A stretch of DNA of 36,841 nt from a virus. A model generated the notes under the pieces. The model had not been told where the DNA came from, did not search any database, and saw only the letters and a program-made list of their open reading frames with translations. A program made the translations under genes and the position numbers. Position 1 is the first letter of the stretch; each line of letters opens with the position of its first letter. The stretch covers positions 1-36,841 of IMG/VR virus record IMGVR_UViG_3300020159_002162; one strand, given 5' to 3'. Shown here in pieces: positions 1-32,798 of the stretch.

Positions 1-279
1 AATAGAAAGCGGTAGAGCAAGTCCTTGACTCAATGTTCCTTTTAGCCGAATTGTTTTAATACGCAACGGCTTATTTGCTTCTTTACGCAAATGGTCATTC
101 CAACTTGCTATTGGCAACACAGAGTCAATTTCAAAAAACACACAGAGGTCATTGACTTTGAATTCCGTCTTCAATGCTACACATTGCCATCCAAGAATTT
201 TTACACAAACAATCTTGTCCGCACCTTCAATGGGTAGGATTTCCGTTATTTTCTGTATAGAAGCGAGTTTACGGTCCAT
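1..279 (-). CDS. RNA ligase, DraRnl/Rnl5 (DRB0094) family, N-terminal part only
   Basis: This partial gene runs off the left edge; 93 codons are visible from an ATG at 279. The product begins MDRKLASIQKI and continues with PIEGADKI, LGWQCVALK, EFKVNDLCVFFEIDSVLP, RIKTIRLKG and SQGLALPL. This is the N-terminal OB-fold module that precedes the nucleotidyltransferase domain in RNA ligases of the Deinococcus DRB0094 type. The catalytic lysine motif KxDG would lie outside the window. Family enzymes seal 3'-OH/5'-phosphate RNA ends in nicked duplexes. A strong promoter (TTGACA, 16 bp, TATAGT) ends 8 nt before the ATG, so the mRNA would be nearly leaderless. The kinase at 6113-6562 and the 2H protein at 1439-1834 suggest a shared role in RNA repair. 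Confidence 0.85.
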   Translation of the reverse strand, partial: MDRKLASIQKITEILPIEGADKIVCVKILGWQCVALKTEFKVNDLCVFFEIDSVLPIASWNDHLRKEANKPLRIKTIRLKGTLSQGLALPLSI

Positions 280-287
280 AATAGATC

Positions 288-315
288 ACTATACATTATT
301 ATGGACCGATGTCAA
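288..315 (-). promoter_or_regulatory. Promoter of the RNA ligase gene
   Basis: On the minus strand TTGACA (315-310) is followed by a 16-bp spacer and TATAGT (293-288). The ATG at 279 is 8 nt further on, so transcription would start within about 2 nt of the start codon. It is one of the best members of the promoter family in this window. Confidence 0.75.
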
Positions 316-324
316 CTACTTTTA

Positions 325-1143
325 TTAACCGTTCCAACCTTTTGGTGGAGTGCAATAATTTCCAAACGCTTGTGGCATTCCTACCTGCTTCTTTGGTTTT
401 ACCTCCACTCCCATTTCAACAAGAGCGTCCTTGCTAGCATAATACATTGTCATTTCACAAACCATTACTCCCTTATCAAAACTTACTCTTTTAACTTTGT
501 CTTCTTGCTTCTGTCCCCACCCAGTTCCAGTATCAAAGTTAGTTGACCTTAATACATTTAATGTTGATAGATTGCGGATAGGAGCACTACTATTCACATA
601 ACAATTATATGATGTTGGTACAGATGCGGCTGACCAAGAGTCACAAGTTGCGTTGATTAAATTTGGGTTTGTATTGCTTGTGTATGTGACGGGTTGAACA
701 GTATATGGAACGGTTGTATATGTTGCAGATGATATATATGGCAATGTAACAACATTGACTAATTCTTTTTCACGAAAAGCTCTTACTCCAATCACACCAC
801 AGTTTTGTGCATCTCCCTTTACATTTTGAACATAGCTCTTGCCTTTGCCTGTAAACACAAATGCAGCAGAGTCATTGTCGCTAATTCTATATCCTTTGAT
901 TTCAATAGTATCATATGCATCAATGATATATCCTGTGTCTGTTTCGGCGGCGTTTTTTCCGCTCACTACATCCAATCCATCGACAGATACAACAACCATT
1001 GTTCGGTTGCCAGTATTGTTCTTCAATTTTATGGTATAGTTCGTACCATCCCTTGCTTCGATAAAACTCATTCCTTGATGAGTATATTCCTTTACACTAC
1101 GTCCATTTACATGGACGGTCATTTCAATGCCGTTGTTTTGCAT
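325..1143 (-). CDS. Conserved phage protein of unknown function (272 aa)
   Basis: The product has a recognisable N-terminal region of about 130 residues: VNGRSVKEYTHQG, FIEARDGTNY, VVVSVDGLDVVSGK, ETDTGYIIDAYDTIEIKGYR and GVIGVRAFREKE. I know this pattern from hypothetical proteins of phages and some bacteria, but it has no assigned function that I can name. The region is predicted mostly beta, with no transmembrane segment or signal peptide. The C-terminal half is Ser/Thr/Asn-rich with a few cysteines (CDSW, NCYV) and ends near a YCTPPKGWNG motif. The ATG at 1143 has a Shine-Dalgarno-like AGAAAGG 8-9 nt upstream (1152-1158), unlike most genes here. A structural or accessory virion role is possible but not shown. 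Confidence 0.85.
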   Translation of the reverse strand: MQNNGIEMTVHVNGRSVKEYTHQGMSFIEARDGTNYTIKLKNNTGNRTMVVVSVDGLDVVSGKNAAETDTGYIIDAYDTIEIKGYRISDNDSAAFVFTGKGKSYVQNVKGDAQNCGVIGVRAFREKELVNVVTLPYISSATYTTVPYTVQPVTYTSNTNPNLINATCDSWSAASVPTSYNCYVNSSAPIRNLSTLNVLRSTNFDTGTGWGQKQEDKVKRVSFDKGVMVCEMTMYYASKDALVEMGVEVKPKKQVGMPQAFGNYCTPPKGWNG

Positions 1144-1220
1144 ATATCAAACCTTTCTTATTTAGTTGTCTAGCCCACACCATGCGGGACTTCAACAAAT
1201 AACTATGATTTAAAATATGT

Positions 1221-1439
1221 TTATAACCACTCTTTCACTTCTTTATCGTTTTTATATCCACCAACTTTTGCGGCTGCTTTGATTTTTTTGAGTTCATCAC
1301 CCTTATATTCTTCTGCCATAACATTGCTAGGATGCATGTCATATACCTTACCGGCATCAGTTAGATAATACTTCTTTTCACCAACTTCGAGGCGCACTAC
1401 CTTGTTGTCTGTGAAGAACACAGCGTCTGTAATTTTCAT
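1221..1439 (-). CDS. Small hypothetical protein (72 aa)
   Basis: I do not recognise this protein. It is charged and Lys-rich, with an N-terminal beta-like segment (VVRLEVGEKKYYLTDAGKVYD) and a helical, Lys/Glu-rich C-terminus ending KEVKEWL. Its ATG (1439-1437) overlaps the TAA of the preceding 131-aa gene by one base in a TAATG junction, which implies translational coupling and supports the gene being real. About 77 bases separate it from the next gene; they hold a weak short hairpin (CCCGCA/TGTGGG) with no T tract, so I do not call a terminator there. Confidence 0.7.
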   Translation of the reverse strand: MKITDAVFFTDNKVVRLEVGEKKYYLTDAGKVYDMHPSNVMAEEYKGDELKKIKAAAKVGGYKNDKEVKEWL

Positions 1440-1834
1440 TAGACTTCTTTTACTTCTCCACTCAACTTGATAGGAGTCTCAAGAGCTTTCCACTCCTTTA
1501 TATCGTTACTCATTACTGGCTTGCCACCATTCTCGATATTAACAGCCATAGTAACGTGTGGAATTTTATTTTTACTTTCAAATCCAGTTACACGAACCGC
1601 AACTGCCATTGGACTAGTTCCTACATGAGTAGCTTCAAGCTTTTGCTTTGTTCCCAAATACTGCTTCAAGTAATTTGGCAACTCGCCCATGTTTATTGTC
1701 ATGTGGTGATTATACATCTTCCATCCACTGTCTCTTACTAGCAATGAAAGTTTCACGCCGTTAACTTTAACATCTTCTACCAATTTTTCCAACTTCAATT
1801 GTGAAGCTTCATCCAATACAATTGCCGAGTACAT
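1439..1834 (-). CDS. Probable 2H phosphoesterase (131 aa)
   Basis: Two His-x-Thr motifs stand about 50 residues apart, each in a hydrophobic beta-strand context: HMT at residues 44-46 (NHHMTINMG) and HVT at 93-95 (IPHVTMAVN). This is the signature of the 2H phosphoesterase superfamily, which includes the cyclic phosphodiesterase domain of fungal tRNA ligase and the RNA ligase/CPDase LigT/ThpR. Members usually open 2',3'-cyclic phosphates on RNA ends. The length is short but workable for a single 2H domain. The ATG at 1834 lies 3 nt after the clamp-loader stop. In T4 this slot downstream of gene 44 holds gp62, but nothing here resembles gp62. The family call rests on motif recognition; the substrate is inference. 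Confidence 0.6.
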   Translation of the reverse strand: MYSAIVLDEASQLKLEKLVEDVKVNGVKLSLLVRDSGWKMYNHHMTINMGELPNYLKQYLGTKQKLEATHVGTSPMAVAVRVTGFESKNKIPHVTMAVNIENGGKPVMSNDIKEWKALETPIKLSGEVKEV

Positions 1835-1837
1835 ATG

Positions 1838-2791
1838 TTATTTGATTGATTTTAAGATCTTGATTATTGTGGACATGAAGCAAATCTCCTTGTCCACCAC
1901 AGAAGCGTCCTGAAATTGTCCGTCTGCAAGTATAACTATAACTTCCGCAGTCTTATTCGGGGCATAATCATCCACTTTTTCAAACAATACTGTGTAGAAG
2001 TCTGCAAAGTTTCTGATATTATTGTCGGCAAGAAGTTGACGGATTGCTGTGAATGCTTCATGCGTGTCGTCGATCTTGAGCATTTCAATGATCTTTGCTT
2101 TTACATCACCCTCAAGAATATCTTCTTTGGCCAACTTTAATTCACCATGTACAACATTTCGTTGAGCGGTATTAATCACGGCGCGAATATCTGGATAATG
2201 AGTGTTGACAAGAAGCACTACACCATCCTTGTCAAATGATACATTTTCATTTTTCAGAATGTTCACAAGATTGGCGGCGACATCCTTTTTACTCGGAGGC
2301 ATGACTCCGAAGGATTGACACCGAGAATGAATAGGCTCAATGATTCGCTCGTGAAAATTACAGGTAAGAATGAATCTGGTATGCTCGCTGAATGTTTCCA
2401 TCATGTTTCTTAATCCAGCTTGAGCAGCGGGAGTAAAGTAATCAGCTTCATCGAGAATGATGACCTTGAGAGGATTGAATCCGATGTTACATGCAAAGTT
2501 CTTGATCTTAACTCGGATGGTTTCAATACCATTCTCATCAGATGCATTGATATATAACACATCGCATTTGATGCTACTTGTAATCAGCTTGGCAAGTGTG
2601 GTCTTACCTGTTCCTGCGCTGCCATACAAAAGCAGATGCGGAATGTCATTGGTTTCGATATACTGTGCCACCTTATTCTTGAGAGTGTCGTTGCCAACAT
2701 AATCTTCCAGTTTGCTTGGACGATATTTTTCTGCCCAAATAGTATGATGACGAACTTCTTGTTCGGGTTGTTCTTCAATTAGAAAGCTCAT
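1838..2791 (-). CDS. 44: Clamp loader ATPase subunit, gp44-like
   Basis: This AAA+ protein of 317 aa (T4 gp44 is 319) has the RFC-small-subunit layout. It starts IWAEKYRPSKLEDYVGN, then Walker A GSAGTGKTT (57-65), Walker B LDEAD (113-117) and the SRC arginine-finger motif (156-158). It would form the ATP-driven complex that opens the sliding clamp and places it at primer-template junctions. It lies 7 nt downstream of the clamp gene and in the same operon as polymerase B, as in T4. The start has no good Shine-Dalgarno; an A-rich AATAAAAACACC precedes the ATG. No gp62 partner is visible next to it, so either gp62 lies elsewhere, has diverged, or the loader is built from one subunit type. Confidence 0.95.
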   Translation of the reverse strand: MSFLIEEQPEQEVRHHTIWAEKYRPSKLEDYVGNDTLKNKVAQYIETNDIPHLLLYGSAGTGKTTLAKLITSSIKCDVLYINASDENGIETIRVKIKNFACNIGFNPLKVIILDEADYFTPAAQAGLRNMMETFSEHTRFILTCNFHERIIEPIHSRCQSFGVMPPSKKDVAANLVNILKNENVSFDKDGVVLLVNTHYPDIRAVINTAQRNVVHGELKLAKEDILEGDVKAKIIEMLKIDDTHEAFTAIRQLLADNNIRNFADFYTVLFEKVDDYAPNKTAEVIVILADGQFQDASVVDKEICFMSTIIKILKSIK

Positions 2792-2798
2792 GGTGTTT

Positions 2799-3527
2799 TT
2801 ATTTGTTGATCTTGACCAAATAATAATTGGCCTCGTATTCAGGTGTTTTGAAATTTACAGACGCAAGTCCGTTGGAATTAACCTTGAGAACAGAACCAGC
2901 CGATCCACGATTCTTGAGTAGAATTTCCTTGAAGTAATTGGCGTTGAAACTAATTGAATTGGATGGCTTGTCTTTTCCATCAACAGGCTTGATTTCCATT
3001 CTCACACGATTTGTGTTTGTATCTCCATCTCCAATCACCAATTCAACCTTATCTCCTTTCTTGTTCATACCAAGTGTGAACGCAGTTACATCAGGAAGAG
3101 CATTCTTAGCCCTTACAAATCGCTCAATGAAATCCTCCGTCAGTTCAATTTCAAGGTCAAAATTACCATCGCTCTTTACCGTAGGAACCTTGGGAATAAC
3201 AGAACTGTCTGCAAGAATAACAAGCGACTCTGTATTGTTGTCTGATACAGAAAGACTGACTGCTCTATCGTCGTCCATTTTATTTACGGAGACTTGTATC
3301 TCTTCGTCCAAAATACCAAGCATCTTTTTGAACTGTTGAGTATCGTGAATACAATATTCACCCTTTTCGATTTCAAGTCCATTGAATTTTACATTACCCG
3401 CCATTGTACGATCATCAGCGATGATTCCAGTTTTTAGATGTTTACCATCAGACTCAAGCTTGACACGTTCAACAGTACCATTGAGGTTGTATAGTTCAAT
3501 GAACTTTAACAGATTTGTTTTATTCAT
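2799..3527 (-). CDS. 45: DNA polymerase sliding clamp, gp45-like
   Basis: The 242-aa protein matches the T4-type processivity clamp in overall pattern: an N-terminal LLKFIELYNLNGTV, an alternating beta-rich body, the central segment TEDFIERFVRAKNALPDVTAF, and a C-terminal ISFNANYFKEILLKN followed by ANYYLVKINK. T4 gp45 is 228 aa. It would form a trimeric ring that tethers polymerase to DNA and, in T4, also activates late transcription. It lies between polymerase B and the clamp loader gp44; T4 has 45-44-62-regA-43, so the order here differs in having the polymerase first. A promoter candidate with TTGACA (3565-3560) lies just upstream of the ATG at 3527. Confidence 0.93.
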   Translation of the reverse strand: MNKTNLLKFIELYNLNGTVERVKLESDGKHLKTGIIADDRTMAGNVKFNGLEIEKGEYCIHDTQQFKKMLGILDEEIQVSVNKMDDDRAVSLSVSDNNTESLVILADSSVIPKVPTVKSDGNFDLEIELTEDFIERFVRAKNALPDVTAFTLGMNKKGDKVELVIGDGDTNTNRVRMEIKPVDGKDKPSNSISFNANYFKEILLKNRGSAGSVLKVNSNGLASVNFKTPEYEANYYLVKINK

Positions 3528-3536
3528 ATGCTTATA

Positions 3537-3565
3537 ATATTGGCAGAAAAGTATAGACCTGTCAA
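3537..3565 (-). promoter_or_regulatory. Candidate promoter of the sliding clamp gene
   Basis: TTGACA (3565-3560), a 17-bp spacer and CAATAT (3542-3537) preceded by an extended TGC. The ATG is 9 nt after the -10, the same near-leaderless geometry as several other genes here. The -10 is weak; a better TATTAT lies too far from the -35 (20 bp). Confidence 0.45.
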
Positions 3566-3566
3566 A

Positions 3567-6077
3567 TCAGAAACTAAAGAACTCATCAATCGCGGCAGCA
3601 TTTTCACTATACATTTGCCATCTCATTGCTGTATAGAAATCTGCAATTTTCTTTTCCAACTCCGCATCCCAGATACGATTGCGGTCAATATTGTTGTTGA
3701 TGAAATTCATAATCTCTTTTGGATCCTTACCATCATCCTTGAATGCCATACCGTCGAGTCCATATGAATTGCTCTTAAGATATACCCACTTGATTTTACC
3801 ACCATGCATAATAGGCTCTGTCTCGGATAGATTATGCTTCTTGAGCATATCATTGTATGCAAGCGCAGCTTTGCATTGTGCGGTTGATCCGTCAATAAAC
3901 TGAAATAATTCTCGGCTATTCGGATTAAAGTTGGTATGTGCTTCTGTGTTACTTATGAATTTTACTGAAGTATTCTTGGCGATATCTTCGATAGCAAACT
4001 CATTCATTTTGCTCTTGAATTCAACAATCTTCTTGTTTACTTGTTCATTTGGCACTCCCTTTAGAATATCAGTTAAGATGCCTTTCATGAAATCTCTGAA
4101 CTTCTTTGGATAGCTTGAGCGAACAACATCAAGACCTTTGATTTCAATATCATTGATGTCCTTGTTCAGTTCCATGTTGTATACTTTCAACATAGCATAT
4201 CTCTTCTTTACTACCCAAAATGCAGACTGTGCCACAACATCCGATGCAATCTTGATTCTATTGTCGGTGGAGTTGAAAAACTTCACCATCATTATCTTAT
4301 AGAAGTTGTTGAGATCTTCGGATACTTCACCAATGGTCTTGATGGCAAATGGCTTTATATCTGTTATTTTCTCATAAATGGCAAGCGAATTAATATCAAG
4401 ATACAATGAATCCGTGTCGATATACACGACATAGTCTTTGTCTCTTGTATTACAACGCTTGTTGAATTTATTATTTACAAATCTGGCGCTGGTCTTAATG
4501 ATTTCTTGACCAGTCAATGTGACGGCGGAGGCATTATCCAAATCATAGAATCTAAAGATTGGCAGACCGAGCACACCGTATAGAGAGTTAAGAAGAATCT
4601 TTTGTACTTGTTGACGGCGCTTCCAAAATGCATATCCAACTTTATCTCCTACCTTGTCGGCATCTCGCATCTTACCTTGAAATTCTTTACGTTCGGTAAA
4701 CCATTTCTTAAGAATGTCGGGTACACAGCCCAGTTTCTTTTGGTCATATACAACACCATTCGCGCTTACTGCCAAATTATTATCTACGATGAACTGAGAG
4801 AAATCTTCGTAGGTATACACTTCATTGTCAAAATGAATCTTTTCGTCAGACTTCTTGACAAGGTTCTCTGGTTCCCAGTTTTTGATTACACCAAGCTTTG
4901 TCTCGGGACTGATATTAAGAGACATAATCACACTTGGATACAGCGAGTTGATGTCGGCAGAACAAATCCAATCGTATCTGCCGGGAATTGGATCTTTTAC
5001 ATATGCGCCTTCAAACCCAACATCATCGTCCAAGTCATCATCCCTATCCGCATCTTGTTCTGGAGCTTTCTTATTTGGTGCAACAAGCTTCTTTCTACGC
5101 AGATATGTTAGCAACGCTCCTTCAAGAATCTTGGATGATACACTGAACTCTTCATATCCCGTGTGACAAACATGACAAATACTCTGTGCAAGTTCAATAA
5201 ATTGCAACAGGTCGTTCATCTTCTTGACAAGAATAACGTCATGCAAGTTGTATTCGATGAACTTGTTGATGTCTGTCTTCTTAAGATTGTCCAACGATCC
5301 TTCAAACTCAACCTTACCAATCTTTAGTTCTTCCTTGGCAACAGTATCCAATCGATAGTTGGGAAGACTCTTGCCGCTGTATTTCTTGTAAAGAAGAAGA
5401 TAGTCGAGACAGTTAACACCGGCAATTGTCATCTTGTTCTTGTATTTGTTCCAATAGCAAATACCAATTGAACTAAGCTTATTGGCAGTTTCTTCACCAA
5501 CAACTTTTACAAGACGAGCATGTAAGTATGGAAAGTCAAAACCATCAATGTTCCATCCTGTGCAGATAGTGGGCTTGATCTGGTCCCACTTGGTCAAGAA
5601 TGCATTGAGCAAATCTTCTTCTGCAAGATATGCTGTGATAATTTGGTCATTCTTTGTTTCATCCTTTACTGCACCATCTTCATCAAGAACAAAGCAATGA
5701 TACACATTCTTTGCGCCGTCATATAGTGCAATAGCCGTTATCTTCTGCTTTGGATCTTGAACGTTTGGATATCCGCCAGTGCTATCCACTTCAATGTCAA
5801 GCACGGCGAGTCTATGATTTTTGGATACATCATCGCTGTCGGAATATGCATCAATCAATACTTTTGTATCCCAAGGAACATCCGCTTCAAATAGCTTTGG
5901 GTCGCGTGGATTAAACTTTTCTATGCGCTCAAGCTTGTCTCCATAAATGGAAGTATATTTTCCATCCCTTGATTTCTTGTATGCATGTGGGCGATACTTG
6001 AAAGAAGTGTAGCCGTGTTCATCGTCCCATAGATGAACGGCGCTGGTCTTTTTGTCCGTATAGATAGCTTGATACAC
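3567..6077 (-). CDS. 43: Family B replicative DNA polymerase, gp43-like
   Basis: The protein has 836 aa (T4 gp43 is 898) and a complete set of family B motifs. Exonuclease: Exo I DIE (94-96), Exo II NIDGFD (176-181), Exo III YNLHD (276-280). Polymerase: motif A DINSLYPS (375-382), motif B KILLNSLYG (493-501), motif C DTDS (554-557). Both proofreading and synthesis should be active. An acidic stretch at about 339-352 (PEQDADRDDDLDDDV) sits between the exonuclease and palm domains. The start is a GTG at 6077, preceded at 6 nt by a -10-like TAATCT. It is the first gene of a transcript that continues into the clamp and clamp loader. It is the main replicase; a second, family A polymerase is encoded at 31431-32798. 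Confidence 0.97.
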   Translation of the reverse strand: MYQAIYTDKKTSAVHLWDDEHGYTSFKYRPHAYKKSRDGKYTSIYGDKLERIEKFNPRDPKLFEADVPWDTKVLIDAYSDSDDVSKNHRLAVLDIEVDSTGGYPNVQDPKQKITAIALYDGAKNVYHCFVLDEDGAVKDETKNDQIITAYLAEEDLLNAFLTKWDQIKPTICTGWNIDGFDFPYLHARLVKVVGEETANKLSSIGICYWNKYKNKMTIAGVNCLDYLLLYKKYSGKSLPNYRLDTVAKEELKIGKVEFEGSLDNLKKTDINKFIEYNLHDVILVKKMNDLLQFIELAQSICHVCHTGYEEFSVSSKILEGALLTYLRRKKLVAPNKKAPEQDADRDDDLDDDVGFEGAYVKDPIPGRYDWICSADINSLYPSVIMSLNISPETKLGVIKNWEPENLVKKSDEKIHFDNEVYTYEDFSQFIVDNNLAVSANGVVYDQKKLGCVPDILKKWFTERKEFQGKMRDADKVGDKVGYAFWKRRQQVQKILLNSLYGVLGLPIFRFYDLDNASAVTLTGQEIIKTSARFVNNKFNKRCNTRDKDYVVYIDTDSLYLDINSLAIYEKITDIKPFAIKTIGEVSEDLNNFYKIMMVKFFNSTDNRIKIASDVVAQSAFWVVKKRYAMLKVYNMELNKDINDIEIKGLDVVRSSYPKKFRDFMKGILTDILKGVPNEQVNKKIVEFKSKMNEFAIEDIAKNTSVKFISNTEAHTNFNPNSRELFQFIDGSTAQCKAALAYNDMLKKHNLSETEPIMHGGKIKWVYLKSNSYGLDGMAFKDDGKDPKEIMNFINNNIDRNRIWDAELEKKIADFYTAMRWQMYSENAAAIDEFFSF

Positions 6078-6083
6078 GTAAAC

Positions 6084-6111
6084 AGATTAGCACAACCAAC
6101 ACAGTTGTCAA
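6084..6111 (-). promoter_or_regulatory. Promoter of the family B DNA polymerase gene
   Basis: TTGACA (6111-6106), 16 bp, then TAATCT (6089-6084) with an extended TGC directly before it. The GTG start is only 6 nt further, which predicts a leaderless or almost leaderless mRNA. Confidence 0.6.
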
Positions 6112-6112
6112 C

Positions 6113-6562
6113 TCATATCACAGTGACGCCGTCAAATCCTTCAATCCTTGTGGGAGAATATAATTTGTTTGCTTGCTTGTCTATTACCCATTCTGGCACT
6201 TTTCTTGCACGCTTACTATTCTGTGATTTGCAAATACTTATGGGAGTATCAATGAAATATGCACGAACTTCGGCATTATTTGCTTTGCCGATTTCGATCC
6301 AATCTTTACGATCTCTTATGGTAAGACTTGTAGCATCAATTATTGTGTTCTTACCTTGTGCCAAATAATCATTTACACGCTTGCGTGCAATTTCAAAAAC
6401 TTTTGCATTCTGGCTTTGATCCTCGGAGTTTCCAGTAAGTTCTTCTCTAATAGCATCAGTTTCAACAAGTTGTGCGTTTAGTGATGTCTTTAATCCATTT
6501 GCATATGTGCTCTTTCCGGATCCACTTATACCAATCATAACTGCTAATATAGGCTTGTTCAT
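6113..6562 (-). CDS. P-loop 5'-polynucleotide kinase-like protein (kinase domain only)
   Basis: The N-terminus LAVMIGISGSGKSTYANGL carries a Walker A motif (residues 11-19). It is followed by ETDAIREEL (substrate-site acid near D36), DATSLTIRDRKDW, and NSKRARKVPEWVID, which match the Arg-lid region and core of the T4 PseT (Pnkp) kinase domain. The protein is 149 aa, so it has the kinase half and lacks the 3'-phosphatase half of T4 Pnkp. It would phosphorylate 5'-OH ends of RNA or DNA. I place the start at the ATG at 6562 rather than a TTG at 6574. The reading frame closes 35 nt before the polymerase gene. A TTGACA element lies upstream. It may feed the RNA ligase at 1-279. Confidence 0.78.
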   Translation of the reverse strand: MNKPILAVMIGISGSGKSTYANGLKTSLNAQLVETDAIREELTGNSEDQSQNAKVFEIARKRVNDYLAQGKNTIIDATSLTIRDRKDWIEIGKANNAEVRAYFIDTPISICKSQNSKRARKVPEWVIDKQANKLYSPTRIEGFDGVTVI

Positions 6563-6602: not shown

Positions 6603-6794
6603 TTATGGAAAAGATTCAACTCCGTTTGCTTTATTGATCGCAAATCCTGCATAAATTGTAGGCGTTGGTGTTGGCGTTGACGTTACCGTTGGTGCTGGCG
6701 TTGATGTTGGTGCTGGTGTTGACGTTGGTGCTGGCGTTGGTGTTGGCGTTGACGTTACCGTCGGTGCTGGCGTTGATGTTGGTGCTGGTGTTTA
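6603..6794 (-). other. In-frame continuation of the Pro/Thr-repeat gene beyond a premature TAA
   Basis: The TAA at 6794-6792 lies where the repeat pattern predicts TCA (Ser), one base different. After it the same frame stays open for 62 codons, first as more Thr-Pro/Ala-Pro/Thr-Val repeats and then as a unique end [18 protein letters not shown], and stops at a TAA at 6605-6603. The unique C-terminus in the same frame suggests the full gene is 6603-7445 (280 codons before the stop) and that the internal TAA is a recent mutation, a population variant or a sequencing error. Confidence 0.7.
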
Positions 6795-7146
6795 CGTTGG
6801 TGCTGGCGTTGACGTTGGCGCTGGCGTAGGTGTTGACGTTGGTGCTGGCGTTGCCGTTGGTGCTGGCGTTGATGTTGGTGCTGGCGTAGGTGTTGACGTT
6901 GGCGTAGGTGCTGGGGTTGATGTTGGCGCTGGTGTAGGTGTTGACGTTGGCGTAGGTGCTAGTGTCGGCGTTGGCGTTCTAGTCGGTCTCGGTGTGTTGG
7001 TAGGAGTTGACGTTGGTGTATTTGTTGGGGTTGGACTTGGTGTAGAAGTTGGTGTAGGGCTGGGTGTAGGAGTAAGTGTTGCGGTTGGTGTTGGTGTAGG
7101 AGTAAGTGTTAATGTAGGGGTTGGTGTTGGGGTTGGTGTAGTCGGA
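6657..7146 (-). repeat. Low-complexity Pro-Thr/Pro-Ala/Ser coding repeat
   Basis: About 490 bases of short-period repeat, reading GTTGGTGTTGGTGCTGGCGTT-like units on the plus strand and coding Thr-Pro-Thr-Pro, Ala-Pro-Thr-Ser-Thr-Pro and Thr-Val on the minus strand. The left half has longer, nearly identical units (about 24-60 bases) and the right half is a simpler TP repeat. Such tracts expand and contract easily by slippage and are also prone to assembly error. Confidence 0.9.
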
Positions 7147-7445
7147 ACAAATGGAGTTTTGGTCGCCAATAACACCCAACCATATAAATTTCCAATATTT
7201 GTAGTTTTTAGATACAAGAATGAACCAGTCTCTACTGTTTGAACTCTTATATCCTCCAATGTTACAGCAAAACTTGATATACCCAACGAATTGATATATA
7301 CCTGCTCCCAGTTCGTTGAATTAGAACCGCTGTAATTTATCTTGTAAAAACTTCCAGTTTTATAGAATAGCGCAGCTTTGGGTGCATCAATTACACCATT
7401 TGGGTTTCCTTTTGAATCTAAACTGGCTTTGAGTATAATGTCCAT
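6792..7445 (-). CDS. Pro/Thr-repeat protein, probable virion or cell-surface-binding protein
   Basis: The N-terminal globular part (about residues 1-97) starts [20 protein letters not shown], has [12 protein letters not shown], and ends in [15 protein letters not shown]. It is followed by more than 115 residues of PT/PA/ST repeats. This layout, a small beta-rich head plus an extended Pro-rich stalk, is common in phage fibres or decoration proteins; I cannot assign a family. No signal peptide is visible. The ATG at 7445 is preceded at 5 nt by TATAGT (7456-7451), the -10 seen in other promoters here, but without a matching TTGACA. The frame is cut at 6792 by a TAA within the repeat and continues in frame to 6603. 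It lies next to the glycosylation operon, so it could be a substrate for O-glycosylation, which is speculation. Confidence 0.7.
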
Positions 7446-9665: not shown

Positions 9666-10210
9666 AATAAATGAGATTTATCTTTATAATTTGGCCATCG
9701 ATACCAATGATATAAGTAAACTCCTCGCATCAAATATAATTTCTCGTTTGATTTTATTACTTTCGTATGCAAGTCGGTGTCAACTCCCAGCATTCCATTC
9801 TCCAAAAATCCTCCAATTTTTTTCCAAAGGCGCTTTTGGATCAGAATCATACAACCACTCATTAAGTTTCCACTTTTTGTTTTTGTAATATCTTCACATG
9901 AAGTACCATATATGGACTCCATCATCAGTCCAAAATTCCTATGATATGCCATATCATTTGATTTGGTATCAACACCCGGAGCAATTTGCTCGGGGCAATA
10001 TACTCGGTTTGTGTAACAAGTATAGCAAGATATATTTGGGTTTTGCTCGATTACATTTTCAATGGTATATCCGTAAAATGGAGTGGTAAATATGGTATCT
10101 CCATCTACAAAACAAGAAAAATCTTGATCACTGGGAATTGTTTTCATTACATCATTGTAATATTTACCAATGTTTTTTTCAGTACTATATGGTATAGAAT
10201 AATATATCAT
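9662..10210 (-). CDS. Short GT-A fold glycosyltransferase (182 aa)
   Basis: The sequence carries a DxD-type metal site in FVDGDTIF (D36, D38) and the block SGCMILIQKRLWKKIGGF, followed by GMLGVDTDLHTKV and YLYHWYR. This is the typical second half of family 2-like GT-A enzymes, where the acceptor loop and a late Asp/His coordinate the sugar nucleotide. It is shorter than most GT2 proteins (about 230-300). It starts in an ATGA overlap with the three-domain glycosyltransferase upstream and ends in another with the GT-D fusion downstream, so translation of the three is coupled. Donor and acceptor cannot be told. Confidence 0.72.
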   Translation of the reverse strand: MIYYSIPYSTEKNIGKYYNDVMKTIPSDQDFSCFVDGDTIFTTPFYGYTIENVIEQNPNISCYTCYTNRVYCPEQIAPGVDTKSNDMAYHRNFGLMMESIYGTSCEDITKTKSGNLMSGCMILIQKRLWKKIGGFLENGMLGVDTDLHTKVIKSNEKLYLMRGVYLYHWYRWPNYKDKSHLL

Positions 10211-12474
10211 ACTTTTATTCCGTCGATATAATTTTTAATGCAAACTTCCGACAATGGCTGTTTAAATTTTTCAATTTCAGCATTTGAATGTTTCCACAAT
10301 TGAAAATATTTTCCGGAAAATTCAATCGGATCGAATACTTCAATCTTTGCGAGCTTGTTCCATATCACAAAATTGAACGATAGTTGATCTCGACATGAGC
10401 CGACCAACACTTCTTTCCACCAGTCCTCACAGAGTTTTTTACATTCAATAGTGTTATGCTTTCTAACTATAATTCCACTTTGAATTAAACCATGATTCTT
10501 AGGATATCCAAGTTCTTTGTATCGAAGAATCTGACTTACTACCGTGTCAGCAAGGTCTTTTTGTCGATGCAGAACTGCTACAGCTTCTTCGTATATACAA
10601 TTTCTAAGCGGATGTTTTGATATGGAGAAGTAACCATTCATACTTTTAGATATAAACTCATTTGTATCTCTAAGAACTTCAATACTACCATCTATCCAAA
10701 CCGAAACATCATATTCGCTCAAAAAAAGATGCGGCATTATTTTTAAACATCTGGCAATCTTTTGCTTCGATAGCAAATTTAGCATACCGGGAATTTCTTT
10801 TATTTTCCACGTTTTGCTTGTGATGGGTTTGTCCGAAAAACACACATAATCAATGTTTGGATTTGGAGACTGAATCTCTTTCAAATAGTCATATCCGCCG
10901 GTAATACAAGTGTATACTACTATCTTATTGCTTGTTTGTGATTCGCCGTCTTCTTTTCGGTTGCGAAAGTAAGAATTTATTTTTTTATAAAATTCTTGAC
11001 TCACATTAGAGAATTCTATCAAGCCTTTTTCTCCAATTGATACGTTATTATCAATGTTTATATCGGAATATATATTCCATCTATGATTATATTTTCTATT
11101 GTGAAATTCCCCATGCCACCCATGAATTACATCTCCGTCCAAACACGCCACTTTTTTGTCTATGTATTTTGTAACCGCCGCTTTCCATATCTGGAATTTT
11201 TCACAATTTTCATTTTTTCCATATATTCCAATTATATTTCGTATTGGAATTTGATTTTCAAATCCGAGCACAGATGCAATAAATGCAACATCGCCTCCTC
11301 CCACAAAACAATAAGGGTACAATCCTCCGTTATTCCACAATTCCCTCAAAGCCGCCCACGCTCCTCCCGGAAGACCTGTTAAACCAATCTCCCCCGATAC
11401 CCCGCAATTCTTCATGATCGAATTCTTGTTTCCAACAACTTTTTCATTTTCGTCGGTATATAAATAGTTGGAATATAACTGTATAAGTTTATGTTCATCC
11501 AGTGCTTTACTTGCCTCGTCGTACCAATTTGCATTCAAAAACTCTAGATCCGCATCTATCCATGCAATCTTCTTGTAAGATTTTGGAACCAATTCTTGGA
11601 CAGCTAAATTTATACATGCTTCTTTTTGAAAGCAAACGTTTTCTTTGCTTATCAATATCTGTGTCCATCCCTCTAGACCCATCGTAACAAATTTATCAGT
11701 CTCGGAAAGCTCTATTCCAAACAATGGAACTGACTTCAATTCCATATTTCTAATAAACCTGTTTAAATTTTTTGCCGTATTTTTGTAATTACACCAATTG
11801 AAATGACAGGTAACTACTGCCATATCTTTCTTTTTTTCCAATTCCGTCGGATGCCATAGATGAATTCCCTTTATATCTATTTTCTGAACTTTGGATTGCT
11901 CGTTCACCCGCTTTGCTAGTTCCATATCCTCATACCCCCATCCGTATATCGATTCATCCATAGCGCCCATCGAAATAAACGTACTTACCTCGAATATAAA
12001 AGACAATGCTCCATACATGGAAATATATTTCACTCTGTCGTCTGAGAAATTTACATCTAATTTTTTTCCAGAACGAATAATATCACTATCTCTTTGATTT
12101 AGTTTTTTTGCAATCTCATATGGTTGTATAAAAGATGCTGTCCAGTCATGTTCAAAAACCGACTTAAACCTCATATAATAATCTACATCGTTCACCCATG
12201 CATATTTTGTATGCACGTGTTGTAAAACTGCATGATTTATTATTCCTGTTTTATGAAATCGCTTCTCTGGAGTCTTAAATAATATATGCTCAACTTTACT
12301 AAACTTAGAAAGAATTTCGAACAGGTTTGAAGTATCGTTTTCGATCTGTTCAACTACAAGTATTCTACATCCAGTGGACTGGATATATGGGAGTATGAAC
12401 TTAAGATTCTCAATACGGTCTTCCTTAAGATCGTATACTGGTATTATAAATGTAATATCATTGGGACTTGGCAT
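10207..12474 (-). CDS. Three-domain glycosyltransferase (GT2, GT-A, DUF616/TOD1-like)
   Basis: I read three catalytic modules in 755 aa. Module 1 (about 1-210): ITFIIPVYD, KTGIINHAV, AWVNDVDYY (metal-site D96/D98), then SIYGWGYEDMELAKRV and GIHLWHP, a GT2 with a galactosyltransferase-type C-terminus. Module 2 (about 218-470): AVVTCHFNW, KIAWIDADLEF (D307/D309), GGGDVAFIA and GWHGEFHNRKY. Module 3 (about 517-755): IVVYTCITGGYDYL, DYVCFSD, VSVWIDGSIEV, HPLRNCIYEEA and GSCRDQLSFNFVIW, which fits the DUF616/TOD1 glycosyltransferase-like family. I place the start at the ATG at 12474 (MPSPND) because the ATG at 12495 lies inside a putative -10. It heads the glycosylation operon and may build a multi-sugar chain on a virion protein, DNA base or host surface. 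Confidence 0.75.
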   Translation of the reverse strand: MPSPNDITFIIPVYDLKEDRIENLKFILPYIQSTGCRILVVEQIENDTSNLFEILSKFSKVEHILFKTPEKRFHKTGIINHAVLQHVHTKYAWVNDVDYYMRFKSVFEHDWTASFIQPYEIAKKLNQRDSDIIRSGKKLDVNFSDDRVKYISMYGALSFIFEVSTFISMGAMDESIYGWGYEDMELAKRVNEQSKVQKIDIKGIHLWHPTELEKKKDMAVVTCHFNWCNYKNTAKNLNRFIRNMELKSVPLFGIELSETDKFVTMGLEGWTQILISKENVCFQKEACINLAVQELVPKSYKKIAWIDADLEFLNANWYDEASKALDEHKLIQLYSNYLYTDENEKVVGNKNSIMKNCGVSGEIGLTGLPGGAWAALRELWNNGGLYPYCFVGGGDVAFIASVLGFENQIPIRNIIGIYGKNENCEKFQIWKAAVTKYIDKKVACLDGDVIHGWHGEFHNRKYNHRWNIYSDINIDNNVSIGEKGLIEFSNVSQEFYKKINSYFRNRKEDGESQTSNKIVVYTCITGGYDYLKEIQSPNPNIDYVCFSDKPITSKTWKIKEIPGMLNLLSKQKIARCLKIMPHLFLSEYDVSVWIDGSIEVLRDTNEFISKSMNGYFSISKHPLRNCIYEEAVAVLHRQKDLADTVVSQILRYKELGYPKNHGLIQSGIIVRKHNTIECKKLCEDWWKEVLVGSCRDQLSFNFVIWNKLAKIEVFDPIEFSGKYFQLWKHSNAEIEKFKQPLSEVCIKNYIDGIKV

Positions 12475-17041: not shown

Positions 17042-19063
17042 TCAATTATTTTCCTTAGACAAAAACTTGGAATTGAGTGTATGCGCGATTTTCACAACAT
17101 TCTTAACATCAATGAATTGTGCATCTTTGCCATACATTGTTTTAAAAAGTTTAAAATTAACAGGCGATTGCACTTGATCGCTTTCCAAGTAATAACTGAT
17201 TACTTCTACACCATTTCCAGTCATCTTAGATACTTGCTTGCGAGTATGTCTTGCAGCAATCTCACCAAAATATCCCGGATTAAATGCAGGTTCACCATCG
17301 GACAAATTCACAAAATAGCTGTCCATCTCATAATTGGAGTGGGGAATATGATCCATAATTGCTTGAAAAGCAAGACCTTCTGGTGTTGATCCATTAGGAT
17401 AAAGCAATGGAAACAGTTGTGTAATCTTGCTAAACTTGTCTTTACGAGAATCGTAAGCAATAACAACATATGGAACTTCTGAATTTCTATTTTTGGAGAT
17501 ATAAACTCCACTTCTAAATGAAATACTAACACTGACATTGTTGATCATGGAGGCCGCTTTAGCAATTGCTACCAATGTGGTCATGGTCTTTTCCCACTTA
17601 ATTTGCATGGAAGAAGATGCATCTACGGAAATATGCAAATGTATATTCTTATATTTGTCTACATGAGTTTGGTAAAAAAGATTCTCTCCTTGGTATCCAA
17701 GTGCGGAAATAATACGACGATCAATTTTTCCTTTTTCCAAACGAGTAAACTTTGTGGTTTTAATTTCAGATCTGATCTGCAATCTACGACCTAGCATTGC
17801 TCCCAAAACAACCCCTTCTCGAACTCCTCTTGCCGACATTGGGTTTTCTGCGGTGGTTCTGAAATTAGACTTATATGGAAAGTCCGAACTTTCCATAAGT
17901 TCTCTTGTGAGATTATTCACAACAATACAATCAACAGAAGGCACACCTTCCTCCTTACCAACGGGAACAATATTAACTCCACTCTTCTCCAATGATTGCA
18001 GCTTGTTGAGCGTCTTGATATCAAATGGAGACTTGATGTTGGTTCGATTGATAAGATCTTCCTGCTTCTTGATCAGTTTTTCAATTTTTTCTTTTTTATT
18101 TTTGGACAAATCAGAATCTTCGTCTTCGGTAATTTCATCCTTAGATTCTTGTTTTTGTGAGGAAGATCCGTCCGTTCCTCCCAAAATATCATCAACCGAA
18201 TCATCATCCGAGTTGCCGTTATTGGTATTATCACCATCGTTGTTGGAATCGTCCTCTGAAAATTCGTTATTATCCGATCCAGTTTCTTCTGAAGTATTGT
18301 CTTCTTTCTTTTCCTGCTTGTCATTAACAGCGCTGGAAATGATTTCATATGCAATGTCAAACGAAAGTTCCAACCGCTTTTGCGGCGTAGACATTTCATC
18401 ACGAAGAATATTATGCAAGTCAAGCATAGTTGCAATCTTTCGCAATCTTGGTAGCGCATCCAAGTCAGTATTCTTGTTCACAAGATTTGTGAAGCGAAAC
18501 TTGTAGTTCTTTACAGTGGGTGTGCGATACGATTGAGACTTCAATCCATGACCAATATCAGGAAGATTAAAATAACGATTATATAATGCATCATAGTATC
18601 CACGATAGCCCGGCGCAGTATAATACGCCCAAGCATCGATATAACGATCCTCTACGACATTCAAAACAAACTTACAAAGTTCGGAAAGTTCATTATTGGT
18701 GAATTTTCCATTGGCAGCTTCGCTGATTTTCTTTGGAAGCTTCCCCCAGATAGTCTTGATTAAGGCAAAATCAGACTTTACAATATGTGATGCTTCATGT
18801 AAAGCAAGTCCAACTGTAGGATCAAATTGACCCTTGGCAAGCTCACCTCCAATATAAACAACCTTGCCGTCTGTCATGGAGGTTGAATTTTCGGCAAATC
18901 TCACAGGAATATTTTTGCCTGTGAGAATATACACAAAGTTTCCAATAGCTCTGCGATATGCAGACAACTTAAGCAGACCATATGTATCGTCCGTGTCAAG
19001 TTTCTCGGAAAAAAATTCTTCTCCAAGCCAAAACTTGGAATACTCTGTGTATTTTTCCTTCAT
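17042..19063 (-). CDS. Metallopeptidase-like and VWA-domain protein (CobT/CoxE-type partner of MoxR)
   Basis: N-terminal domain (about 1-245): GLALHEASHIVKSD contains HExxH (H89, E90, H93), and NVVEDRYID (E138) is a plausible third zinc ligand, as in DUF2201-type putative metallopeptidases joined to VWA domains. A linker of about 75 residues (249-325) is extremely acidic and Asn/Ser/Asp-rich. The C-terminal VWA domain (about 470-673) has the MIDAS motif DASSS (480-484), preceded by IHLHISV, and further NLSDGEPAF. VWA proteins of this kind work with MoxR ATPases as metal-insertion or remodelling machines. The MoxR gene ends 3 nt upstream, so the two are one transcript. In cyanophages similar genes are labelled cobS/cobT, but a cobalamin role is not implied. 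Confidence 0.8.
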   Translation of the reverse strand: MKEKYTEYSKFWLGEEFFSEKLDTDDTYGLLKLSAYRRAIGNFVYILTGKNIPVRFAENSTSMTDGKVVYIGGELAKGQFDPTVGLALHEASHIVKSDFALIKTIWGKLPKKISEAANGKFTNNELSELCKFVLNVVEDRYIDAWAYYTAPGYRGYYDALYNRYFNLPDIGHGLKSQSYRTPTVKNYKFRFTNLVNKNTDLDALPRLRKIATMLDLHNILRDEMSTPQKRLELSFDIAYEIISSAVNDKQEKKEDNTSEETGSDNNEFSEDDSNNDGDNTNNGNSDDDSVDDILGGTDGSSSQKQESKDEITEDEDSDLSKNKKEKIEKLIKKQEDLINRTNIKSPFDIKTLNKLQSLEKSGVNIVPVGKEEGVPSVDCIVVNNLTRELMESSDFPYKSNFRTTAENPMSARGVREGVVLGAMLGRRLQIRSEIKTTKFTRLEKGKIDRRIISALGYQGENLFYQTHVDKYKNIHLHISVDASSSMQIKWEKTMTTLVAIAKAASMINNVSVSISFRSGVYISKNRNSEVPYVVIAYDSRKDKFSKITQLFPLLYPNGSTPEGLAFQAIMDHIPHSNYEMDSYFVNLSDGEPAFNPGYFGEIAARHTRKQVSKMTGNGVEVISYYLESDQVQSPVNFKLFKTMYGKDAQFIDVKNVVKIAHTLNSKFLSKENN

Positions 19064-19066
19064 GTG

Positions 19067-20023
19067 TTAAAAAGGAGGTTGATCTGCATAACGGCTGGTG
19101 TTCTGATTTCCATACAGTGCATCAGATTTTCCATCTGCCGCAACATATTTCTGAACAATCTGTTTGACCATTGTTCGCTCACTGTCAACTCCACCATCAT
19201 CTGGATAGTCGGGGTAGATGATCATTTCGGCAAGTTCAATGAGATTGAATCCATCAATTGTAAGTTCTGCCATTTCCTTGACACTGCGTGTGGACAAGAA
19301 CTTGGAAAGCTTACCCTGATGAGTAAATTCTCTTGTAGCAGCGGCGATTTCAACAATAGACAGCATGATGTTCATGTCTGCATTCGGACAATGCTCCTTG
19401 ATGAATTCCATCTCAGAGTTTTGATTGAGAATATCCATTTCAATCTTGACCGTAAAACGATCAAGTAGGGCTTTATCCATCACACGAGTTGCGGTATATT
19501 CATTGCCTACATTTGCCGTGGCAACGAAGCAAACTCCTTCCGCGACTTGAACTTTTTCACTACCAAGCTTTTCATCAAGACGAAGATATCGTTGAATATA
19601 ATCAAGCGGAGTAAGAAGAATATTCCATGCATCAGGATGGGCGCGAGAAAGTTCATCAAGGTGGATGATGCTATTAGGAGTACGAAGTGCTTTTACAAAT
19701 GGAGATTCATCAAATAGTGTACCAGACTCTTTGTTGAAATGAGTATTTCCAATAAGTGCAGCACGCGGATCTTGAGTCGCGCCCATATTGATATAGAAAT
19801 ATCTGTCACGAATATCCAATGCATCTACAAGCGATTGCACAGCAAATGTTTTTCCAGAACCAGATGGACCAATAATGAGAATATTCTTTCCACGCAATGC
19901 ACTGCGAACAAGATATCGCCACTTCAAGTCTTTGAGAAACAACTTCTTGGGCTTGATTTGAGCCGCAGCATCAACCGTGGCCTTGATATCAGTGGTCATA
20001 TAAATCTTATTGGTCTTATTCAT
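19067..20023 (-). CDS. MoxR/CobS-type AAA+ ATPase
   Basis: The 318-aa protein has Walker A GPSGSGKT (52-59), a MoxR-like loop GATQDPRAALIGNT, Walker B IIHLDELSRA (D123, E124), VATANVGNEYTATRVMDKALLDRF (sensor 1 and the arginine-finger region) and a C-terminal lid. It would use ATP to remodel a target together with the VWA protein encoded 3 nt downstream. The pair resembles RavA-ViaA and CobS-CobT in layout. The gene opens a transcription unit: a terminator of the previous gene lies directly upstream, and its T tract runs into the -35 of this gene. The ATG at 20023 is 8 nt after the -10, so the mRNA would be nearly leaderless. Confidence 0.88.
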   Translation of the reverse strand: MNKTNKIYMTTDIKATVDAAAQIKPKKLFLKDLKWRYLVRSALRGKNILIIGPSGSGKTFAVQSLVDALDIRDRYFYINMGATQDPRAALIGNTHFNKESGTLFDESPFVKALRTPNSIIHLDELSRAHPDAWNILLTPLDYIQRYLRLDEKLGSEKVQVAEGVCFVATANVGNEYTATRVMDKALLDRFTVKIEMDILNQNSEMEFIKEHCPNADMNIMLSIVEIAAATREFTHQGKLSKFLSTRSVKEMAELTIDGFNLIELAEMIIYPDYPDDGGVDSERTMVKQIVQKYVAADGKSDALYGNQNTSRYADQPPF

Positions 20024-31430: not shown

Positions 31431-32798
31431 TTAGTCTATGGATATTTGCTTCATGTCCTTGTAGTTGTTTCCTACATATATTTTGACAGGAAACTTGCCT
31501 CTCTCCATTATGTTTTTTAGCTTTTTGATTGTGTCCATCTTGTCTGCTTTATGGGCATCAAAAAGAATGCTGTCATATGTGTACAATATTGGTTGTGTTT
31601 TCCTGTCATCTAGTTCAGATAGAATATCTCCAAGTACTTCAACGGCTGTTTCTGTTTCAAATGCCTGTAGAATATAGTTGAATAGCTTGCTTGGATTGGC
31701 GTCTGGAATATGGCACTCTTTGATTTTTCTCTTGTATTTTGGCGTTTCAATATACCCGTTCTGCTCAAAGAATTTCCAACGATGGTCAATATATTCTTGG
31801 ATTTTATAGAAATATGGAATATGTAGCCATTTCTTGTCTATACCGCCATATAGTTGTGTGAATGTAAATCCCTTAGCAACAGCAATATCTTCATCATTTG
31901 CTTCCTTCTTATTGAAGAAATATTTGGCAAGATATGCATATGGATTTTCTTCGGCGCTCATGTTGAAGTTCACAAGATGCGCAATCAGTCTGGGATGAAA
32001 TGCATTATAATCCATCATGACTAGCATACCATTGTTTTTGTGTCTGCTGATAAAACATTCTCTACTACCATCATTCTTGTTAAGCGCAGCATAATTTACT
32101 CCACCAAATCTGTTACTTGGTCTACCTGTGCTGGTAAGAAGATTGTATTGTGAGAATACCAAATTATTTTTGATGTGTTTGGTTTGGTCGTTTCCAAATT
32201 CATCTGTGAAATTTTCATTTATACACAATCCAATATTTTCCAATTTGGCAAAACACTTTGTCATGGTGTTGTTGACAAACTTGAAACCATCGTCACGAAT
32301 CATGTCGTTGTTAATCTTACCAAGATTGTTTACTTTTTCACTGAACGATCTGATGTGCTTATAGATTGGCGTGCATGCATTTATGTTTGATACATCTCTA
32401 AAGTTTGATCGTATAAAAGTATGCGCGTTTGTTTCATGTTGCTTTTGATCATGCATTCCCTCGTCGAGATACTTAAGTATGCTTATATCAATGAAATCAT
32501 AGTCTTCATCAAAAAGTTGTATGATCGATTTCTTGTCAAAAACAAACTTGTTATGAATTGAGAACTTGAGATGTTCCTTGACCTTGTTCAGTGAATTGGC
32601 AATGGGAAGTGCCTCATTATGATGCAAAGGTAAACACCATAAACTCTTGGACGACATAAAGTAAAACATCAATAGACTTACAGTATTATTTTTTGCATGT
32701 TTTTCATGATCAACACATACAGCGTCCATCACAAAAGCATCGCTGCCAATGTGACTACACATCAAAATAAGCTCGTCTTGTGTTTCTACAATATGCAC
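31431..32798 (-). CDS. Compact family A (Pol I-like) DNA polymerase with decayed exonuclease domain
   Basis: All family A palm/finger motifs are present in 455 aa. LLTSTGRPSNR (220-230) matches TATGRLSS of E. coli Pol I. Motif A is MMDYNAFHPRLIAH (D263, R270, H274) for DYSQIELRILAH. Motif B is AKGFTFTQLYGG (K309, F313, Y317). NYILQ (374-378) matches the NxxxQ motif. Motif C is YTYDSILFDAHK (D409). The two catalytic Asp are kept. The steric-gate Glu (Pol I E710) is His268, R754 is Ile305, and HDE of motif C is YDS. The N-terminal 120 residues look like a decayed 3'-5' exonuclease: DAVC for DTET and no clear Exo III. The start is GTG at 32798. The gene has an early-type promoter although its neighbours are structural genes. 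Confidence 0.85.
   Translation of the reverse strand: MHIVETQDELILMCSHIGSDAFVMDAVCVDHEKHAKNNTVSLLMFYFMSSKSLWCLPLHHNEALPIANSLNKVKEHLKFSIHNKFVFDKKSIIQLFDEDYDFIDISILKYLDEGMHDQKQHETNAHTFIRSNFRDVSNINACTPIYKHIRSFSEKVNNLGKINNDMIRDDGFKFVNNTMTKCFAKLENIGLCINENFTDEFGNDQTKHIKNNLVFSQYNLLTSTGRPSNRFGGVNYAALNKNDGSRECFISRHKNNGMLVMMDYNAFHPRLIAHLVNFNMSAEENPYAYLAKYFFNKKEANDEDIAVAKGFTFTQLYGGIDKKWLHIPYFYKIQEYIDHRWKFFEQNGYIETPKYKRKIKECHIPDANPSKLFNYILQAFETETAVEVLGDILSELDDRKTQPILYTYDSILFDAHKADKMDTIKKLKNIMERGKFPVKIYVGNNYKDMKQISID

Follow-up and report, generated by a model that had tools for sequence, protein, structure and literature searches.

A kinase, a Trl1-like 2H phosphodiesterase and an Rnl5-type ligase as a probable RNA-repair set of a T4-like phage

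Can a phage hold, as separate genes, the end-healing and sealing activities that fungi combine in a single tRNA ligase chain, and would such genes serve to mend RNA cut by the host? This question is raised by three genes of the virus record IMGVR_UViG_3300020159_002162, which encode a polynucleotide kinase domain, a 2H phosphodiesterase and part of an RNA ligase. The stretch analyzed (the window) is the entire 36.8-kb record (36,841 nt), which is most likely a genome fragment because one gene exits the contig end and relatives reach 297 kb. It carries the T4-like phage markers polB, clamp loader, rIIA/rIIB, RecA-like and ribonucleotide reductase genes. The three activities occupy three reading frames, in agreement with a prediction made earlier from the letters of the sequence (the original prediction):

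1–279, minus strand: OB-fold module (93 amino acids, aa) at the N-terminus of an RNA ligase of the Rnl5 (DraRnl/NgrRnl) type, whose gene runs past the contig end (PF21189 and PHROG matches).
1439–1834, minus strand: 2H phosphodiesterase of the Trl1-CPD/CNPase type, 131 aa, with H44-x-T46, H93-x-T95 and GGKPxxSN (PF08302, AlphaFold model).
6113–6562, minus strand: polynucleotide 5'-OH kinase domain alone, 149 aa, with the P-loop GISGSGKST (AAA_33 and PHROG 505).

The kinase and the 2H protein would be the two end-healing enzymes, and the ligase the sealing enzyme, of one phage RNA-repair set, a reading that we consider probable. RNA end healing by this gene set is well supported by sequence comparison, and the trio probably mends RNA cut by the host as a defense. 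Domain identity, fold, catalytic residues, purifying selection, conserved gene order and repeated linkage of the 2H family to RNA-repair enzymes were each observed directly.

Kinase, 2H protein and ligase

The nearest named phage is Microcystis phage Mel-JY01 (polymerase identity 41%), but nine viral contigs are far closer, with clamp loader identities of 80–96%; one of the nine, L059, is 297 kb long and was analyzed over its full length. A sister contig, L001, whose 2H protein is 93% identical to that of the window, provided a complete ligase for comparison. Most records compared are fragments, and absences are therefore weak evidence.

The kinase was predicted to be Pnkp-like and to lack a phosphatase, and both points held. 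It matches Pfam AAA_33 (E 8.5e-26) and PHROG 505, the T4-type polynucleotide kinase profile, at positions 4–141 of 295 only (E 2.6e-23), and the reading frame ends ahead of any phosphatase domain. Neither the window nor any of the nine relatives matches this profile beyond its kinase half, and the HAD (DxDxT) 3'-phosphatase is absent. The closest solved relative is the kinase domain of Clostridium thermocellum Pnkp (CthPnkp; 4gp6, E 6e-14), a bacterial RNA-repair enzyme. Upstream of polB, Mel-JY01 encodes an Rnl1-type ligase and a full-length Pnkp, and truncation in place of such a T4-like Pnkp was considered; a plain loss of the phosphatase half is not demonstrated, because the Mel-JY01 and window kinases are just 24% identical. 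Strict replacement of the phosphatase by the 2H protein is likewise not demonstrable: of 12 more distant relatives searched over whole records, G059 alone clearly matches the phosphatase part, and no other part, of the PNK profile.

Since 2H proteins have many functions, the kind of 2H protein matters. The window protein carries the expected pair of HxT motifs at residues 44–46 and 93–95, and its AlphaFold model (mean pLDDT 96.9) has the 2H fold, which answers the doubt attached to the original prediction, that the 131-aa protein might lack this fold. It matches PF08302 (tRNA_lig_CPD, the fungal tRNA ligase phosphodiesterase) at 23.9 bits against a curated cut-off of 23 (E 3e-5). When 45 family members were scanned singly, 42 matched the same Pfam at E<=0.1 (best 2.4e-7), and none matched LigT, 2'-5' RNA ligase or other 2H Pfams. 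Searches of the PDB with phmmer and with a profile gave no match for the window protein, and its solved relatives came from fold comparison alone. The nearest is CNPase (Z 12.8 over 125 residues, 2.5 Å), and the CPD (cyclic phosphodiesterase) part of Candida albicans Trl1 KIN-CPD (6u05) follows with Z 10.7; scores are lower for Acb1 (Z 7.1) and for LigT-type enzymes (about 6.5). Among viral models, the top Foldseek match is a marseillevirus 'RNA ligase'. Family match and predicted fold together place the window protein in the Trl1 phosphodiesterase family and not among generic LigT enzymes.

The family signature reads YSAVVLDE...HHMTINMG...PHITxAVN...GGKPxxSN. H44/T46 and H93/T95 are invariant in the family alignment, and both HxT/S motifs are present in 77 of the 83 2H domains found. 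Of the six exceptions, L011 has truly lost a motif, L127 is truncated at a contig end, and at four loci the piece under study is a second, LigT-like 2H domain. The L011 protein (9986–10369, plus strand) has PYIIIAVN in place of PHITxAVN and, judged by this motif, is perhaps a decayed or binding-only version. Among the nine close relatives the 2H protein falls to 57% identity with both HxT motifs retained. By the Nei-Gojobori method, the ratio of nonsynonymous to synonymous substitution (dN/dS) is 0.05–0.08 for most 2H pairs, 0.17 for the most divergent pair computed, and 0.08 for the kinase; these values are well below 1, and both are therefore maintained genes. A scan of genome contigs found no cellular 2H homologue, which is weak evidence as few peptide patterns were scanned.

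The ligase was predicted to be of DraRnl type. The family assignment stands, as the window piece matches PF21189 (E 1.3e-27) and a PHROG RNA ligase (E 1e-26), but under a third of the gene lies in the window: it runs off base 1, so only the OB-fold N-terminus is present, and no catalytic RNA_ligase domain was found in the window. All nine closest relatives have a complete gene of about 340 aa with a KMDG lysine motif. The complete L001 enzyme (342 aa, KMDG) is closest to Naegleria gruberi RNA ligase (NgrRnl; E 3e-69), and the ligases of the window clade combine PF21189 with PF09414, again closest to NgrRnl and not of Rnl1 or Trl1 type. A TTGACA-16-TATAGT sequence stands immediately before the ligase; it carries little weight, as the promoter scan gave 27 hits where chance predicts 26.

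The 2H family in other phages and the gene order of the trio

Among 2.9 million viral contigs, a homologue search found the 2H family at 47 loci, and further searches brought the collection to 58 2H domains distinct at 90% identity. Unrelated phages in which the replication block of the window is missing have the family linked to a kinase, a ligase, a CCA-adding enzyme and an RNA-repair phosphatase. At L007, L013, L014 and L017 a kinase ends in the 2H domain (AAA_33 + tRNA_lig_CPD); downstream lies an Rnl1-type ligase (PF09511) whose best solved relative is T4 Rnl1 (E 9e-12). One search with a kinase-2H fusion as query returned 16 contigs, one of them 362 kb long; the PF09511 ligase lies 0.5–5 kb downstream of the fusion in 15 of these, and the sixteenth stretch ends before the expected place. 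The best Foldseek match of the fusion in the PDB is fungal Trl1 KIN-CPD (6u05, E 4e-6), with both domains spanned; taken singly, its kinase half resembles T4 PNK (Z 13.7) and its 2H half CNPase (Z 11.8). By domain content and modeled fold, fusion and downstream ligase thus look like a split Trl1. The RNA-repair set proposed in the original prediction gains from this recurrence in independent phages of a Trl1-family phosphodiesterase fused to a kinase with an Rnl1-type ligase near.

Streptomyces and Pseudomonas phage 'polynucleotide kinases' that align to most of the fusion were inspected as possible isolates and rejected, because they proved to be ordinary kinase-HAD Pnkp proteins (DIDGT/DVDGT, no HxT pair). 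In a separate observation, three contigs (L117, L118 and L119, near 5108) have a kinase-2H fusion with an in-frame TAA in the P-loop (GVP*PGSGKS), read directly in L117 and apparently common to all three, which come from different samples.

A CCA-adding enzyme, fused to or near the 2H domain, occurs in 24 of the 47 records. At 18 loci the two share one reading frame, or evidently do so where the gene is split or truncated at a contig end. The HD domain of the E. coli CCA enzyme is itself active as a 2',3'-cyclic phosphodiesterase. By analogy, a related idea is that the CCA-2H fusions may repair tRNA 3' ends. Proteins of 730–2419 aa at L019, L020, L033 and L035 hold a second, LigT-like 2H domain (HPHITIAY) together with the Trl1-like 2H domain and the CCA-adding enzyme. 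HAD_SAK, the "Swiss Army Knife" RNA-repair phosphatase, is encoded in 16 of the 47 records, L004 among them, and in 14 of the 16 it lies no more than about 1 kb downstream of the 2H domain. Cultured crAss-like Bacteroides phages have a diverged 2H relative (first motif DHCT), and a kinase-only PNK is encoded at another site in their genomes; PhiCrAssBcn4 also has a TROVE protein near this relative.

Around the window genes, the order PNK-polB-gp45-gp44-2H-orf72-(variable)-ligase is kept in all nine closest relatives, where the active-site motifs of the trio are retained as well; the conservation that the original prediction had proposed to look for is thus present. More distant clamp-loader relatives (<=58% identity) have none of the three genes at that site, and none of the 12 that were searched over whole records has the 2H gene. 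The genes that lie among the trio are as follows:

325–1143, minus strand: orf272, without an assigned function, within the variable stretch that separates the ligase from 2H; DUF7918 match below threshold only.
1221–1439, minus strand: orf72, 72 aa, overlapping the 2H stop by one base; no Pfam match.
1838–2791, minus strand: clamp loader large subunit, gp44-like, 3 bases upstream of 2H (PHROG 168, E 1e-77).
2799–3527, minus strand: probable sliding clamp, gp45-like by its position between polB and gp44, which is kept in relatives; no significant family match.
3567–6077, minus strand: family B DNA polymerase, gp43-like (PHROG 262, E 9e-174).

The 2H gene is tightly packed among the replication genes: 3 bases separate it from the end of the clamp loader gene, and its stop codon overlaps the start of orf72. 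Directly after 2H in 9 of 9 relatives, at 65–82% identity, orf72 may, from its position, encode a partner protein of the 2H enzyme. The distance from orf72 to the ligase varies, and orf272 is present in seven of the nine relatives at variable positions.

Three further features of the window, all on the minus strand, were recorded. Tandem 18/24/30-base repeats at 6657–7130 and 6792–7445 encode a Pro-Thr repeat tail, and this DNA has long open frames on the opposite strand too. Adjoining rIIA/rIIB, at 17042–20023, is a pair resembling a MoxR-type AAA+ ATPase (19067–20023) and a protein with a VWA-like stretch (17042–19063), the latter with no PHROG match. A second polymerase-like gene at 31431–32798 is similar to the C-terminal region of a different DNA polymerase family (PHROG 17, E 1e-13) and coexists with the family B polymerase in the same phage.

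The 2'-phosphate and the rival explanations

If the three enzymes act together, a host ribonuclease would cut RNA to leave 2',3'-cyclic phosphate and 5'-OH ends. The 2H enzyme would open the cyclic phosphate to a 2'-phosphate and 3'-OH, as in fungal Trl1, the kinase would phosphorylate the 5'-OH end, and the 5'-3' RNA ligase would join 3'-OH to 5'-phosphate. The 2'-phosphate would either be tolerated or be taken off by an additional enzyme, whether ahead of sealing or after it. We infer these reactions, a substrate shared by the three enzymes, tRNA as that substrate, and a counter-defense purpose.

The 2'-phosphate is where the original prediction, that the 2H protein takes the place of the missing phosphatase half, does not hold. 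Yeast and plant CPDs convert 2',3'-cyclic phosphate to 2'-phosphate/3'-OH, whereas T4 Pnkp produces a diol (PMC3400036). The fungal ligase requires the 2'-phosphate, which Tpt1 takes off later. NgrRnl is described as nick-sealing, and the NgrRnl-like human RLIG1 rejects 2'-phosphate ends (PMC9931718). The 2H enzyme is therefore not a plain substitute for the Pnkp phosphatase; by analogy with these enzymes, a further phosphatase step is probably needed, and the phage needs either another 2'-phosphatase or a ligase that tolerates 2'-PO4. The proposed parallel to T4 Pnkp/Rnl1 acting against PrrC is reduced to an analogy, as the ligase is of the nick-sealing Rnl5 type and not Rnl1; for the same reason, the anticodon loop is unproven as a target.

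Several observations weigh against a joint repair pathway. The 2'-phosphate product would be unsuitable for an NgrRnl-like enzyme such as RLIG1 (PMC9931718), and a nick-sealing Rnl5 is not the Trl1/Rnl1 type expected for anticodon loops. Tpt1/KptA (PF01885) was found in none of 50 and none of 17 records, mostly fragments, in scans where the positive controls matched, and HAD_SAK was not found in the nine closest relatives. The genes of the trio are not adjacent: polB, clamp and clamp loader separate the kinase from 2H, and the variable stretch separates 2H from the ligase. The window 2H protein clears the PF08302 cut-off barely (23.9 versus 23 bits), and measured activity was found for no member of its family. 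A role of the 2H enzyme as hydrolase of a KptA by-product was also considered and rejected, as no KptA was found.

The missing step may lie elsewhere in the genome. A second repair region of L059 encodes RlaP (E 1.6e-16), cREC (E 3.7e-23) and an Rnl1-type ligase (E 2.3e-15), with a weak Macro match below the cut-off. In the reading frame adjoining the cREC domain (L133:5991-6638, minus strand), metallophosphoesterase-like motifs (SDLHLGH, GD, GNHN) were read by eye, with no Pfam match. From their sequences, the genes of this region are candidates for the missing 2'-phosphate step and for an anticodon-loop ligase, and the phosphoesterase-like frame could remove the 2'-phosphate. L059 also has 36 predicted tRNA genes and a transfer-messenger RNA (tmRNA) gene, the latter predicted by ARAGORN at L133:7795-8185 (plus strand), which is 107.8 kb in L059. 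Together with RlaP, cREC and the Rnl1-type ligase, these RNA genes speak in favor of the repair reading.

In a variant of the repair pathway the trio would be self-sufficient, the ligase sealing 2'-PO4/3'-OH ends directly as Trl1 does, so that the junction keeps its 2'-phosphate and no phosphatase is needed. This follows Trl1-like logic and suits a clade without HAD_SAK and Tpt1, in whose searched records no Pnkp phosphatase half was seen. The ligase is nevertheless of NgrRnl/DraRnl and not Trl1 type, its structural relative RLIG1 rejects 2'-phosphate (PMC9931718), and the L059 frame beside cREC offers a possible phosphatase, which leaves the variant unlikely. A different explanation is that the three genes are a chance sum: a DNA 5'-end kinase beside polB, a 2H protein of other function beside the clamp loader and a ligase for RNA/DNA-hybrid nicks, serving replication or other tasks. 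T4 Pnkp-type kinases act on DNA too, Rnl5 ligases seal duplex nicks, and kinase and 2H do lie within the replication gene block. In unrelated phages without that block, however, the 2H family keeps its links to a kinase, a ligase, a CCA enzyme and an RNA-repair phosphatase, and we regard a chance sum as very improbable.

The 2H protein could also act alone, degrading a host immune signal (a cyclic oligonucleotide or ADP-ribose derivative) in the manner of Acb1, unconnected to kinase and ligase. T4-like phages encode Acb1, a 2H enzyme close in size to the window protein and with an HxT/HxT tetrad (PMC9117128), which appears in the same structural list at Z 7.1, and a 2017 survey proposed stand-alone phage 2H proteins as RNase or 2'-5' oligoadenylate-type enzymes (PMC5512222). 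The scores for CNPase (12.8) and Trl1 CPD (10.7) far exceed that for Acb1, the family matches PF08302 and no other 2H Pfam, and it is repeatedly fused or linked to RNA-repair enzymes. No anti-CBASS family match was seen for the family, in libraries with no Acb1 model known. On this balance an Acb1-like role appears quite unlikely, and repair by the three enzymes together remains the preferred reading.

Assistance of RNA ligases by 2H enzymes has been proposed for jumbo phages (PMC7824862, PMC9503650), whereas the phage 2H domains of the 2017 survey were never seen associated with RNA ligases (PMC5512222). The Trl1-CPD-like family is an exception to the latter, being associated with RNA ligase in several architectures. 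With it one can ask, concretely and cheaply, if RNA-end healing in phages follows the yeast route, which leaves a 2'-phosphate, or the T4 route to a clean diol, and it bears on the origin of the fungal tRNA ligase. The yeast route predicts a missing 2'-phosphatase, for which HAD_SAK and the phosphoesterase-like frame beside cREC are candidates.

Comparison with known systems

Acb1, the anti-CBASS nuclease, shares with the window protein a small phage 2H fold with HxT/HxT motifs, but fold similarity is lower, no sequence match was seen and the gene context differs. The Rnl5 ligases DraRnl of Deinococcus and NgrRnl of Naegleria have the same N-terminal OB module as the window ligase and, like the complete ligases of the nine relatives, a nucleotidyltransferase domain; unlike them, the ligase of the window clade is encoded by phages, in genetic linkage with a kinase and a 2H protein. 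The bacterial Pnkp/Hen1 systems (CthPnkp; Pnkp1-Rnl-Hen1) also repair RNA and include the closest relative of the window kinase, but there kinase, calcineurin-type phosphatase and ligase are joined or in a complex, whereas the window kinase stands alone with a 2H protein in place of the metallophosphatase. In animals, the lancelet ligase BfRNL works with a separate PNK/CPDase, so that kinase and CPD are likewise apart from the ligase, and vertebrate CNPase is the closest solved structure to the window 2H; in these proteins kinase and CPD are fused, whereas in the window all three are apart.

T4 Pnkp and Rnl1, which repair PrrC-cleaved tRNA-Lys, resemble the window genes in being phage-encoded healing and sealing enzymes with a related kinase fold, and both phages are T4-like. 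The kinase-fused HAD phosphatase of T4 leaves a clean diol, while the window lacks that domain and has a 2H protein, and the ligase families differ. Fungal Trl1 (LIG-KIN-CPD) is one chain where the window has three genes; the window ligase is of Rnl5 type, its CPD is far smaller (131 aa) and no Tpt1 2'-phosphotransferase was found. Trl1 and the window share a 2H domain of the CPD family (PF08302, Z 10.7), a P-loop 5'-OH kinase and an ATP-dependent 5'-3' ligase. In other phages a single chain holds kinase and CPD, arranged as they are in Trl1, and an Rnl1-type ligase gene follows downstream. It is possible, though we put it forward tentatively and at somewhat less than even chances, that one small phosphodiesterase family forms the core of a modular Trl1-type toolkit in tailed phages, standing alone beside kinase-only PNK and Rnl5, joined to a kinase next to an Rnl1-type ligase, or joined to a CCA enzyme with a HAD phosphatase beside it, and that the kinase-CPD half of Trl1 derives from such phage cassettes or has a common origin with them.

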